Assembly (NCBI GenBank): GCA_016218705.1
Contig: JACRDC010000074.1
Span: forward strand, 1-58,408
Source: Desulfarculus sp.
GTDB lineage: Bacteria; Desulfobacterota; Desulfarculia; Desulfarculales; Desulfarculaceae
Direction: 5' to 3'
Length of the DNA: 58,408 nucleotides
In this document: positions 4,215-26,849 of the stretch, one piece after another
Position numbering within the stretch: the first letter of the stretch is position 1
How the letters are laid out: every line of letters starts with the position of its first letter
Translations under genes and position numbers: made by a program
Notes under the pieces: generated by a model
What the model was told of the DNA's origin: nothing
The model's database searches: none
The model's input: only the letters and a program-made list of their open reading frames with translations

Positions 4215-4451
4215 CTACATCACCGCTTGCACGCTGGTCACGCTCGGCAGTTCCTCACGCAGGGCTTTTTCGATGACGTTGTGCAGGGTGGCGCCGGCGC
4301 TTTTGCAGCCCGAGCAGGCGCCCATGAGGCGCACCAGCACCACGCCCTGGCCGTTGACGCCCAGTAGCTGCACGTTGCCGCCGTGCTTGATTAGCTCACC
4401 CCGGCACTTGTCCAGGGCGGCCTCGACCTCTTGGCGGGTGGGCGCGGCCAT
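4215..4451 (-). CDS. NifU C-terminal-like Fe-S scaffold protein
   Basis: A 78-residue NifU-like domain. The cluster-binding CSGC motif is at residues 46-49 in the typical setting VRLMGACSGCKSAGATL. Such proteins hold a transient [4Fe-4S] cluster for transfer to apo-proteins. The ATG at 4451 shares a base with the mrp stop codon (TGATG), so translation is probably coupled; a GTG at 4454 is an alternative. Pairing with an Mrp ATPase makes sense, since both handle nascent Fe-S clusters. Confidence 0.88.
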   Translation of the reverse strand: MAAPTRQEVEAALDKCRGELIKHGGNVQLLGVNGQGVVLVRLMGACSGCKSAGATLHNVIEKALREELPSVTSVQAVM

Positions 4452-5515
4452 CACTTCACCTCCGGGGCCAGGTTCAGGCGGGCGGCCACTTGGCGGGCCA
4501 GCTCCTGGTAGGCCTGGCCCGAGGCGGCGTTGGATTCCACGATGGGCCGGCCCACGTCCATGGCCTCGCGCACGGCCTTGTCCAGGGGGATCTCGCCCAA
4601 AAAGGGCACGCCCAGGCGCGCCGCCAGGGGCCGCACCGAGCCGTGGCCGAAGATCTCGTGGCGGCTGTCGCAGTCAGGACAGATGAAGTAGCTCATGTTC
4701 TCCACGATGCCCAGCACCGGGGCGTTCGTGTGGTTGAACATGTCCACGGCCTTGATGGCGTCCACCAGTGCCACGTCTTGGGGGGTGGTCACCACCACGG
4801 CGCCGGCGATGGGCACCTCCTGGGTCATGGTGATCTGGATGTCACCGGTGCCGGGAGGCAAATCCAGCACCAGCACGTCCAGGGGCGCCCAGGCCACCTC
4901 GTGCAGCAGTTGCTTGACGGCCTTCATGAGGATGGGGCCGCGCCAGATCAGGGCGCGCTCGGCCCCCACCAGGAAGCCGATGGAGAGCACCTTGATGCCG
5001 TGGGCCTGCACCGGGGCGATCTTGCCGTTCTCGGCGTCGCCGGGCTGGGCGCCCTGCAACCCCAGCATCAGGGGGATGGAGGGGCCGTAGAGGTCCAGGT
5101 CCAAGAGGCCCACCTTGAGGCCCTGCTGGGCCAGGCCCAGGGCCAAGTTGACGGCCACCGTGGACTTGCCCACCCCGCCCTTGCCCGAGGCCACGGGCAC
5201 CACGGCCTTGACGCCCTCCAGGGGGCGCGGGCCGGCGGGCTTCTTGGGCTGGGGCGGCTCGGGCACGTCCAGCTCCAACTCGCTCACGCCAGCCAGGCCG
5301 GAGATCACGCCGGCGATGTCGTTCTCCAACTGCTCGCGCACCTCGGGTGGGGCGGCCAGGGGCCTGAGGCGCACCACGGCGCGGGTACCGTCCAGGCGGG
5401 CCTCCAGCACCAAGTCCATGCTCACGATGTCTGCATCAAAGCCGGGGTAGCGCACGTTGGCCAGCGCCTGGGCAAAGACCGGCGAGATGACGGGTTTGTC
5501 TGAATTGGGCGTCAT
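4451..5515 (-). CDS. mrp: Mrp/ApbC-type P-loop ATPase for Fe-S cluster delivery
   Basis: A 354-residue cytoplasmic ATPase with an N-terminal MIP18/DUF59 domain (about 8-84) and a C-terminal Mrp/NBP35 ATPase. The deviant Walker A is GKGGVGKST (111-119); a CPDC motif in YFICPDCDS is the cluster-binding pair of this family. It carries and delivers [4Fe-4S] clusters as a dimer. The start at 5515 is chosen because AGGAGC precedes it; an upstream in-frame extension runs through the hairpin repeat at 5528-5687 and is not credible. The nifU-like gene follows directly. Confidence 0.93.
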   Translation of the reverse strand: MTPNSDKPVISPVFAQALANVRYPGFDADIVSMDLVLEARLDGTRAVVRLRPLAAPPEVREQLENDIAGVISGLAGVSELELDVPEPPQPKKPAGPRPLEGVKAVVPVASGKGGVGKSTVAVNLALGLAQQGLKVGLLDLDLYGPSIPLMLGLQGAQPGDAENGKIAPVQAHGIKVLSIGFLVGAERALIWRGPILMKAVKQLLHEVAWAPLDVLVLDLPPGTGDIQITMTQEVPIAGAVVVTTPQDVALVDAIKAVDMFNHTNAPVLGIVENMSYFICPDCDSRHEIFGHGSVRPLAARLGVPFLGEIPLDKAVREAMDVGRPIVESNAASGQAYQELARQVAARLNLAPEVK

Positions 5516-5527
5516 GTCAGCTCCTAA

Positions 5528-5687
5528 TACTGATATGCAATCAAAGCCATCCATGGCTTTGATTGCTGATCGGCCGGGCAAAAGCGTGGTTTTGCCCGGT
5601 CTCCCGGGCGCTTACGCGCCCGGCGGGCCATCCATGGCCCGCATACCAAGTTGCGATCAAATTATTGGTTTGCTCGCAACTTGGTAT
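5528..5687. repeat. Five-hairpin dispersed element, copy 1
   Basis: Five perfect stems lie in series: 5537-5550/5553-5566 (14 bp), 5574-5583/5590-5599 (10 bp), 5604-5611/5616-5623 (8 bp), 5624-5631/5634-5641 (8 bp) and 5643-5656/5674-5687 (14 bp). The same array recurs inverted at 26566-26719; three of the stems are identical. It sits in the mrp leader, ending 12 bases before the start codon. The arrangement, with an ATACCAA-type terminus, suggests a miniature transposable element or a structured intergenic repeat. Confidence 0.85.
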
Positions 5688-5788
5688 AAGGAGGGTCGGG
5701 TGCGAACAACAGGCTAACTATAATCATCCGCCGGCGGATTGCCAGCAATTTGAGGGGGGCGGCGGGGAGGTCCTGGGCGCCCGGCTGC

Positions 5789-25451: not shown

Positions 25452-25942
25452 GCCCAGGCCAGGCCCAAGGCCAGCCAGTGCTGCTCTGCGAGCGCATGCT
25501 GGGCCGCCTGGCCACCTGGCTGAGAATTCTGGGCTACGACGCCCCCCTGATCGAGCGCCCGCCGGCCATGACGCCGCCGGGCGCCGTGCTTCTCACCCGG
25601 CGGCAGCGCCTGGCTGGGCGGTCGGGGGTGCTATTGGTGAGCCATGACCGCCTGGAGGACCAACTGCGCCAGGTCTTGGGCGAGCTGGGCCTGCGGCCCC
25701 AGCCCAACCAGTGGTTCTCGCGCTGTCTGGCCTGCAACCAGGCCGTGGAGCCCCTGGAGCGCTCGGAGGCCCTGGGCCTGGTGCCGGACCACACCCTGGC
25801 CACGGCCCCTGGCTTCACCCGCTGCCCGGCCTGTGGCAAGATATTCTGGCCAGGCTCCCATGGCCAGCGGGCGGCCCAGCGGATAGAGGCCCTGCTGGCC
25901 AGCCTGCCGGCGGCCGTGCTGGACCAGGGGCCGGAAGCCTAG
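25448..25942 (+). CDS. Mut7-C RNase-domain protein
   Basis: A 164-residue protein of the Mut7-C family, a PIN-like nuclease fold plus zinc ribbon. The N-terminal signature is LLCERMLGRLATWLRILGYDA, a conserved aspartate sits in VSHDRLEDQL, and the zinc cysteines are CLAC (about 97-100) and CPAC (about 124-127). RNase activity is inferred from the fold. The stop codon overlaps that of the convergent GDT1 gene within a shared CTAG (25939-25942). Confidence 0.85.
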   Translation: MSPGQAQGQPVLLCERMLGRLATWLRILGYDAPLIERPPAMTPPGAVLLTRRQRLAGRSGVLLVSHDRLEDQLRQVLGELGLRPQPNQWFSRCLACNQAVEPLERSEALGLVPDHTLATAPGFTRCPACGKIFWPGSHGQRAAQRIEALLASLPAAVLDQGPEA

Positions 25943-26514
25943 AACAGGCCCAGCTTCTTAAGCCCCTGTCCGGCGTAGACAATCCCCACCAGGAAGAAGA
26001 TGGCCGCCGCGCCCAGCTTCACCGCCCGCTCGGGCAGGCGCTTGCCCAGGTGCTGGCCCAGCCAGATGGCCAGGCCGTCGGAGGCCACCATGCCCAGGCT
26101 GGAGCCCAGCCAAACCCCCACGGTGGGCTGGCCGGCGGCCAGGGTCACGGTGCCCAGCATGGTCTTGTCGCCCAGCTCGGCCAGGAAGAAGGTCACGAAG
26201 ACGATGAGAAAGGGCGAGGTGAGGCGGCGGGCCGGGGCGTCCTCGCCGTCCAGGGTGTCGCCGCGCAGGGTCCAGGCCCCAAAGGCGACAAAGGCCAGGC
26301 CCGACAAGAGCTCCACCCAGCCCGGGGCCAGCAGGTGGGCCGACAGGCCCCCCAGGGCCACCGAGAGCAGGTGCACCAAGAGCGTGGCCACCAAAACGCC
26401 CCACAGCACCACCAGGGCCTTGAAGCGGGTGGCCAGGGTCAAGGCCACCAGTTGGGTCTTGTCGCCCAACTCGGCCAAAAAGATCAGGCCCAGCGAGAGC
26501 CAGAAACCATCCAT
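25939..26514 (-). CDS. TMEM165/GDT1-family Mn(II) exporter
   Basis: A 191-residue membrane protein with six helices and two inverted copies of the family's metal-binding motif, ELGDKTQLVAL (about 15-25) and ELGDKTMLGTV (about 112-122). Members export Mn2+ (some move Ca2+/H+). The ATG has GGAGGCGCC upstream. A yybP-ykoY manganese riboswitch lies in the leader at 26721-26840, which strongly supports Mn2+ export as the role. A dispersed hairpin element is inserted between riboswitch and gene. Confidence 0.93.
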   Translation of the reverse strand: MDGFWLSLGLIFLAELGDKTQLVALTLATRFKALVVLWGVLVATLLVHLLSVALGGLSAHLLAPGWVELLSGLAFVAFGAWTLRGDTLDGEDAPARRLTSPFLIVFVTFFLAELGDKTMLGTVTLAAGQPTVGVWLGSSLGMVASDGLAIWLGQHLGKRLPERAVKLGAAAIFFLVGIVYAGQGLKKLGLF

Positions 26515-26565: not shown

Positions 26566-26719
26566 ATACCAAGTTGCGAGCAAACCAACAGTTTGATCGC
26601 AACTTGGTATGCGGGCCATGGATGGCCCGCCGGGCGCGTAAGCGCCCGGGAGGCCGGGCAAAACCACGCTTTTGCCCGGCCGATTACCAATCAAAGCCAT
26701 GGATGGCTTTGATTGGTAT
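26566..26719. repeat. Five-hairpin dispersed element, copy 2 (inverted relative to copy 1)
   Basis: The same five stems as at 5528-5687 but in reverse order: ATACCAAGTTGCGA stem at 26566-26610, then 26613-26630, 26631-26650, 26653-26679, and TACCAATCAAAGCCAT/ATGGCTTTGATTGGTA at 26685-26718. Outer ends are ATACCAA and TTGGTAT, a terminal inverted repeat. The last stem has CC...GG where copy 1 has GC...GC, so pairing is preserved by a matched change. It abuts the riboswitch poly-T and lies inside the exporter leader. Confidence 0.88.
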
Positions 26720-26720
26720 T

Positions 26721-26760
26721 AAAAAAAAAGACCAATGCACCACCATGGGTGCAAAGGTCT
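26721..26760 (-). terminator. Riboswitch-controlled intrinsic terminator
   Basis: Reading leftward, a stem AGACC-TTT-GCACC ... GGTGC-ATT-GGTCT (26760 to 26729) is followed by nine T residues (26729-26721). Its 5' arm contains the CCTTTGC needed for riboswitch stem P1, so the two structures exclude each other: Mn2+-bound aptamer should prevent termination. Confidence 0.85.
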
Positions 26761-26840
26761 CGCTAAGCCTAATGTGGCCGGTAAAGCCAGGCCCGCGGGC
26801 CAGTATGTTGACTTTACCTGACTAGCTACTCCCCTCTGCG
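26751..26840 (-). ncRNA. yybP-ykoY manganese riboswitch
   Basis: Reading leftward from 26840, the RNA has the conserved AGGGGAGTAGCT (26835-26824), then GTCAACATACTGG, GGCTTTACCGGCCACA, and AGCGAGACCTTTGC (26764-26751), matching the yybP-ykoY aptamer core. P1 pairs GCAGAGG (26839-26833) with CCTTTGC (26757-26751). The aptamer senses Mn2+; the downstream gene is a GDT1-type Mn exporter, the expected partner. Confidence 0.9.
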
Positions 26841-26849
26841 GAGAATTGA

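Follow-up and report, generated by a model that had tools for sequence, protein, structure and literature searches.

Two copies of a five-hairpin element

The window, i.e. the whole stretch of 58,408 nucleotides that was analyzed, harbors two copies of a small hairpin-rich element in opposite orientation. Copy 1 closely precedes the ribosome-binding site of a gene encoding an Mrp/NUBPL-type P-loop NTPase. Copy 2 was inserted between a Mn2+ riboswitch, the terminator T-run of which it directly adjoins, and a gene encoding a GDT1-family antiporter; with this position behind the T-run and in front of the antiporter gene, copy 2 is expected to be transcribed once the switch is on. The following features were assigned.

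4451..5515, minus strand: host gene for the Mrp/NUBPL-type P-loop NTPase, its leader holding copy 1 (PF10609, 6.7e-99)
5525..5527: target-site duplication TAA, left of copy 1, read from the sequence
5528..5686, plus strand: element copy 1, a MITE of 159 bp
5537..5566, plus strand: hairpin H1 of copy 1 (fold and alignment structure)
5572..5601, plus strand: hairpin H2 of copy 1 (fold and alignment structure)
5605..5622, plus strand: hairpin H3 of copy 1 (fold and alignment structure)
5623..5642, plus strand: hairpin H4 of copy 1, nearly invariant across genera
5644..5686, plus strand: terminal palindrome H5 of copy 1, its outer arm being the transposon end TACCAAGTTGC...
5687..5689: target-site duplication TAA, right of copy 1, from the analysis of complete copies
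25939..26514, minus strand: host gene for the GDT1-family divalent cation/proton antiporter, downstream of copy 2 (PF01169, 5.2e-42)
26567..26718, minus strand: element copy 2, 152 bp, the left end of the element being 26718
26567..26609, minus strand: H5 of copy 2
26611..26630, minus strand: H4 of copy 2 (sequence)
26631..26648, minus strand: H3 of copy 2 (sequence)
26652..26681, minus strand: H2 of copy 2 (sequence)
26685..26718, minus strand: H1 of copy 2, paired without mismatch as far as the transposon end (TACCAATC..GATTGGTA; sequence)
26711..26846, minus strand: Mn2+ riboswitch (yybP-ykoY, RF00080; Rfam 48.8 bits, E = 5.2e-10)

An earlier reading of the sequence alone (the sequence-only reading) had described five perfect stem-loops, present twice and inverted, at 5537-5687 and 26566-26719. 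Both copies are real, but the outermost TACC..GGTA ends had been overlooked and the extents had to be corrected to 5528-5686 (plus strand) and 26567-26718 (minus strand); moreover, not all stems are perfect, with one mismatch (GATC/GCTC) in H5 of both copies and one G-T pair in H2 of copy 1. The matched change at the end pair of H1 that had been pointed out does exist; in copy 2 it is one part of a more extensive rewrite (TACCAATC..GATTGGTA), which yields a perfect palindrome reaching the transposon end. Folding of copy 1 as DNA gave -65 kcal/mol (z = -12.6), and none of 200 dinucleotide shuffles was equally stable. The flanks of copy 2 on the plus strand are TCA and TTA, hence its target-site duplication is inexact.

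In a collection of 90 H5 hairpins, the H5 variant TTTGCTCGC was confined to the two window copies, and the orthologue of copy 1 in genome G003 is without it. This points to a recent common history of the two copies, by transposition or conversion. One segmental duplication was rejected as their origin; the flanks differ, and about 100 further copies preserve the stems.

A dispersed family in the host genome

The end pattern TTTGATYGCAANTTGGTATNA gave 164 + 172 matches in the host genome and none in the reversed control. Because each complete copy yields three such matches, this corresponds to a dispersed family of about 100-110 intergenic copies in a genome of 4.2 Mb; at least 40 near-complete copies were detected by BLAST of the same genome. 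The sequence-only reading had named two solitary copies within one recent segmental duplication, or stems lost in further copies, as observations that would speak against it; copies turned out to be abundant and their stems kept. Related copies also occur in the same-genus genomes G001, G002, and G003. In a pattern scan with one genome per species, the sole named record matched was a groundwater MAG called Desulfarculus sp.

The majority of complete copies belong to a 159 bp class. A class of about 200 bp carries an additional hairpin within the H4 loop, one copy of about 240 bp has modules in the loops of both H2 and H4, and classes of 78 or 121 bp lack hairpins. Nearly the entire element consists of hairpins and short spacers, and there is no transposase inside. 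The H4-loop module CCGGGGTCCCC..GGGGTGGATCC is duplicated in tandem at L131 and L136 of G002; in some copies, the H2 loop harbors this module in reverse orientation. Elements reduced to a single hairpin, about 50 and 43 bp long, are located in G001 (L152 1504-1553 and L147 ~1478-1520); they consist of H1 or H5 alone with transposon ends on both sides.

Complete copies start with TACCAA and finish with TTGGTA in the setting C[TNA]...[TNA]G, the target being CTNAG, and they carry the terminal inverted repeats TACCAATATGCAATCAAA / TACCAAGTTGCGATCAAA. Identical 3-bp TNA flanks were present at 49 of 62 testable complete copies, as compared to a mean of 14.9 and a maximum of 25 in 2000 trials with shuffled flanks. 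Near-exact empty sites were identified in G003 for L087:10725 and L046:3899; the one for L046:5606 is less clear. Two insertions, window copy 1 and L035:3754, are common to the host genome and G003. In G004, G002, G007, G008, and G009, the orthologous leader lacks copy 1. Empty sites in a relative together with TNA duplications identify the element as a MITE. The mobile or MITE-like nature proposed from the sequence alone is thus borne out by the terminal repeats, by the target-site duplications that had been suggested as a check, by the empty sites, and by the lack of an orientation preference described below.

Gene context was determined with a simple codon-usage gene caller, which allowed classification of 63 copies. 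None of them lies inside a gene, and 28 of the 63 are located between convergent genes, where 65/382 (17%) would be expected (p = 6e-6). Relative to tandem genes the orientation is 16 to 13, i.e. without preference. The insertion site of about ten copies coincides exactly with a stop codon; as TAA and TGA both fit TNA, the duplication restores the stop. This intergenic, convergent-biased, and orientation-neutral placement is that of a tolerated insertion and not of a regulator, and any influence of the elements on neighboring genes would be incidental.

Placement also bears on the possibility that the element encodes a structured RNA, either cis-regulatory or small, which is under selection at each site, and that mobility is secondary. 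Both window copies do lie in mRNA leaders, one of them behind a Mn2+ riboswitch, but in the family as a whole it is the space between convergent genes that is enriched and not leaders, and both orientations are used. Furthermore, an Rfam search returned no family for the element, the threshold being reached by the neighboring Mn2+ riboswitch only. We consider this reading unlikely, also in view of the stem changes reported below. High copy number, intergenic position, and palindromic structure within one genus are likewise reminiscent of extragenic palindromes of the REP/BIME type, which a RAYT tyrosine transposase spreads; however, REPs are units of 20-40 bp with GTAG or CGTC tags (PMC3733652), whereas the units here comprise 159 bp with terminal inverted repeats and target-site duplications and no tag was noticed in them, making such an origin hardly credible.

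Terminal inverted repeats link the family to IS630-type transposases

In genomes G000-G005 of the genus, all draft assemblies in which a parent may be unassembled, no transposase of the DDE_Tnp_1, DDE_Tnp_4, DUF4096, or DDE_3 type with matching ends was found. A DDE_3 match in the same-genus contig G002:C90 was rejected as parent, as it is without TACCAA ends. The full-length parent with ATACCAA ends envisaged in the sequence-only reading is accordingly missing from the genus, but in other members of the phylum IS630-type transposases do lie next to matching ends. A parent within the same host is frequent among MITEs without being a requirement.

Many distant families of the phylum show a strong excess of the end YTNATACCAAGTTGC, with for example 40, 59, 38, and 29 places in single genomes and near zero in the reversed control. 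In G097, the end of the family closes an IS630-type transposase gene (DDE_3 2.8e-19, HTH_33 1.3e-14). In this genome and in G068, G330, and G087, a DDE_3/HTH_33 transposase ends and is followed by a terminal inverted repeat in which 20-23 of 26 bases equal those of the window family, with TNA flanks at single ends. The first 11 bases had been demanded by the search; agreement further inward, GAGTART, does not depend on this demand. A complete IS630 element of 1139 bp with both ends and TTA/TTA flanks was found in G278. Another one, of 1142 bp with the related ends TACCAATTTG and TCA/TCA flanks, is located on Acaryochloris plasmid pMB01 (L378 952-2093, NZ_CP071718.1); its transposase and the G097 enzyme share 54.5% identity. 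The pMB01 element is annotated merely as separate transposase and winged-helix proteins. The left end of the window family, TACCAATATGCAATCAAAG, fits the parental repeat less well. IS630 relatives of Gloeocapsopsis, Acidithiobacillus, and Caballeronia showed no clear TACCAA/TNA ends, and a literature look-up of the terminal repeat returned primers and other unrelated strings only.

MITEs with a TACCAAGTTGC end, a TNA duplication, and unrelated hairpin-rich interiors of about 90-280 bp are also present in other Desulfobacterota (L198, L201, L204, L205, L208, L209, L213, and L216). For several MITE-like pairs in the loci of the phylum the flanks did not match.

The canonical TA-only duplication of this transposon group does not apply to the window family, as 49/62 copies have the same middle base N in both flanks, and the IS630 elements with matching ends depart from it likewise. 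TNA duplications are typical of the IS5 family, and a MITE of an IS1031/IS427-like element was considered for this reason; indeed, an IS5-like DUF4096 IS is inserted at CTAAG with a TAA duplication in G002, a genome of the same genus (L156, G002:C243). However, the ends of this IS are unrelated (GAACTTATCCG), no DDE_Tnp_1, DDE_Tnp_4, or DUF4096 element of that family has TACCAA ends, and IS630-type elements combining TACCAA ends with a TNA duplication do exist; an IS5 origin is thus very unlikely. Two unrelated IS groups thus use one target.

Judging from the ends of elements in other families of the phylum, the window family was most likely mobilized in trans by an IS630-type transposase producing a 3-bp TNA duplication. 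Such a Tc1/mariner-like enzyme would recognize the end of about 26 bp, TACCAAGTTGC..TC..GAGTART, and would cut and paste the copies in trans; it would now be lost from the host genome or be unassembled in it.

Complementarity of the stems

Among 33 copies of the 159-bp class, difference from the consensus amounted to 0.021 in stems and 0.076 in loops. Six pairs were changed on both sides; all six are complementary, and each is private to one copy. For 90 H5 hairpins from the host genome and G003, 37 complementary double changes were counted, as compared to 2.9 expected after arm shuffling, and 6 non-complementary ones.

Some of these changes comprise several bases at once. At the shared insertion L035/L275, one lineage went from TACCAAGTTG..CAACTTGGTA to TAGCCAGTTG..CAACTGGCTA; the paired changes spoiled the transposon end (TACCAAG to TAGCCAG) and kept the palindrome. 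In the common form of H1, the outer arms CCAATATGC and GCTGATCGG show three mismatches. They were made perfect by rewriting of the left arm in L098, of the right arm in L054, and of both in L057 and L060, and window copy 2 represents another such case. Over 72 copies the number of mismatches in these outer arms was 0, 1, or ≥3, never 2. Additionally, the H5 loop is exactly inverted in 3 of 90 copies (L039, L045, and L056); inverted loops were not found in H1, H2, and H4.

Compensated changes arising in one step and inversions of the loop are published footprints of template switching (PMC8794818; PMC7202029). Changes that are private, damage the transposon end, and rewrite several bases in either direction, together with the inverted loops, favor template switching over selection, and template switching between arms would preserve perfect stems without any RNA function. 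From these footprints we infer that the stems stay complementary mainly by mutual correction of their arms: one arm of a hairpin would be corrected from the other when template switching occurs during replication, and complementarity would not stem from each copy encoding a selected RNA.

The sequence-only reading had taken stem preservation as a sign of selection on structure. Preservation is real, but for individual copies selection is not needed, given the private, multi-base, and end-damaging nature of the changes. The same data weigh on an RNA selected at each site. Stems that vary less than loops within the genus and changes that are compensated would be expected of it; on the other hand, the compensated changes also occur in copies with damaged ends and at about 100 unrelated sites, and comparison of orthologous copy 1 between the host genome and G003 revealed uncompensated stem changes, too.

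Five-hairpin arrays in other genera

A covariance model, the kind of search proposed in the sequence-only reading, was built solely from 28 copies of the host genome. With it, arrays in the five-hairpin order were detected beyond the genus, in three to four other genera. Full-length arrays scored 83.8 and 67.5 bits in G009, 75.3 bits in G011, and 60-72 bits in G006, the best background score being 14.8 bits in about 340 kb of G009. Weaker, old copies were found in G005 and elsewhere in the host genome. A high copy number in G009 was rejected; arrays are rare there (1 in 400 kb).

In an alignment of 20 matches, which was fitted to the structure and in which four rows are low-scoring opposite-strand or partial matches, double changes were present at 46/58 pairs, and 95.9% of cells pair as compared to 73.1% after shuffling. 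Across genera the stems are replaced, and H4 hardly varies; arrays in other genera were located via the conserved H4, so that this constancy is partly due to ascertainment, which leaves the order of the other hairpins unaffected. Template switching accounts for the complementary stems but not for the persistence of the order and of H4. Some constraint may act on the five-hairpin order conserved across genera.

Doubly changed pairs and a constant H4 across genera would also suit a selected RNA, which the findings within the genus argue against. Alternatively, the hairpins of a MITE may be under selection as DNA because transposition depends on them, e.g. if the transposase needs single-strand hairpins or cruciforms. 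The order preserved over genera, the invariant H4, and the fact that hairpins make up nearly the whole element are in line with this proposal. Nevertheless, paired changes are private and some destroy the end required for transposition (L275), elements with the same terminal repeat in other families have quite different interiors, and copies without whole hairpins still moved with a target-site duplication (L040:7839, L045:1762, and L085). Such selection is conceivable but rather improbable. With about the same reserve, we suggest that the array might be an old unit common to the whole family, with a function or a replication logic of its own, for which the kept order, H4, and the H2 tip in at least four genera and the insertions into intrinsic terminators in G006 can be cited. 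In this case, stems and transposon ends would have been exchanged while the order H1-H5 stayed.

The arrays of G006 are located between direct repeats, each of which is a complete terminator-like hairpin.

L342 1236-1392: G006 array, direct repeat of 29 bp
L343 1310-1465: G006 array, direct repeat of 34 bp
L345 1212-1367: G006 array, direct repeat of 25 bp
L341 1251-1407: G006 array, diverged repeat of ~17 bp

They look as if insertion had duplicated a whole terminator; a literature search on terminator-targeting insertion returned nothing. If true, duplications spanning an entire terminator hairpin (25, 29, and 34 bp) would imply a hairpin-targeting insertion mechanism. Furthermore, G010 has tandem repeats (119 bp and 134 bp) in which the H4 hairpin GCGGGCCATCCATGGCCCGC is part of the unit (L347 2269-2762, reverse strand; L349 ~1020-1290).

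Interpretation and comparison with known systems

Taken together, the two window copies very probably belong to one family of non-autonomous DNA transposons (MITEs) that was moved in trans by an IS630-type transposase and the stems of which were kept complementary mainly by template switching. Covariation in stems is commonly read as evidence of a selected RNA structure, and this family is a warning for covariance-based discovery of RNAs. Its about 100 independent copies lend themselves naturally to testing the extent to which hairpins can be maintained by template switching alone. The five-hairpin layout conserved between genera stands beside this account and is left unexplained by it. The IS630 group is extended by a subgroup with a 3-bp TNA duplication and a terminal inverted repeat distributed over many families of the phylum.

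Template-switch mutations (Monttinen and Loytynoja 2022; E. coli quasipalindrome mutations) show the same one-step compensated stem changes and loop inversions (PMC8794818, PMC7202029); the published cases concern RNA genes and reporter sites, whereas here dozens of copies of one mobile element are affected. With IS630/Tc1-mariner elements, the elements identified here share a DDE_3 transposase plus winged-helix domain, an A8 run at which two frames are joined, and TACCAA ends; the canonical Tc1/mariner target is TA, whereas the present subgroup duplicates TNA.

RUP, a MITE of Streptococcus pneumoniae attributed to IS630-Spn1, is likewise small, intergenic, present in about 100 copies, and highly base-paired, and it has its terminal inverted repeat in common with an IS630 element (PMC2229807, PMC3049150). 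RUP comprises 107 bp and its target sites contain TA, in contrast to the TNA duplication at CTNAG; unlike RUP, the present element is built from five separate hairpins, and no parent IS was found in the genome, a draft assembly. Pneumococcal BOX elements, too, are assembled from hairpin modules, the inner ones of which are optional and may be repeated (PMC3049150). Their boxB modules are arrayed in tandem with boxA on one side and boxC on the other, in contrast to the extra modules of the present family, which reside inside hairpin loops; the sequences differ, and the family described here has a clear 3-bp target-site duplication. The bcr1 repeat is reportedly of mobile-element character, to go by the title of a 2004 report by Okstad. 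It is found in the Bacillus cereus group and is listed as a repeat of about 150 bp with conserved secondary structure (PMC2267715); host and sequence are different. In comparison with these systems, the family is an ordinary kind of element: it is a MITE, albeit unusually built, and its record of arm-to-arm correction is exceptionally clear.
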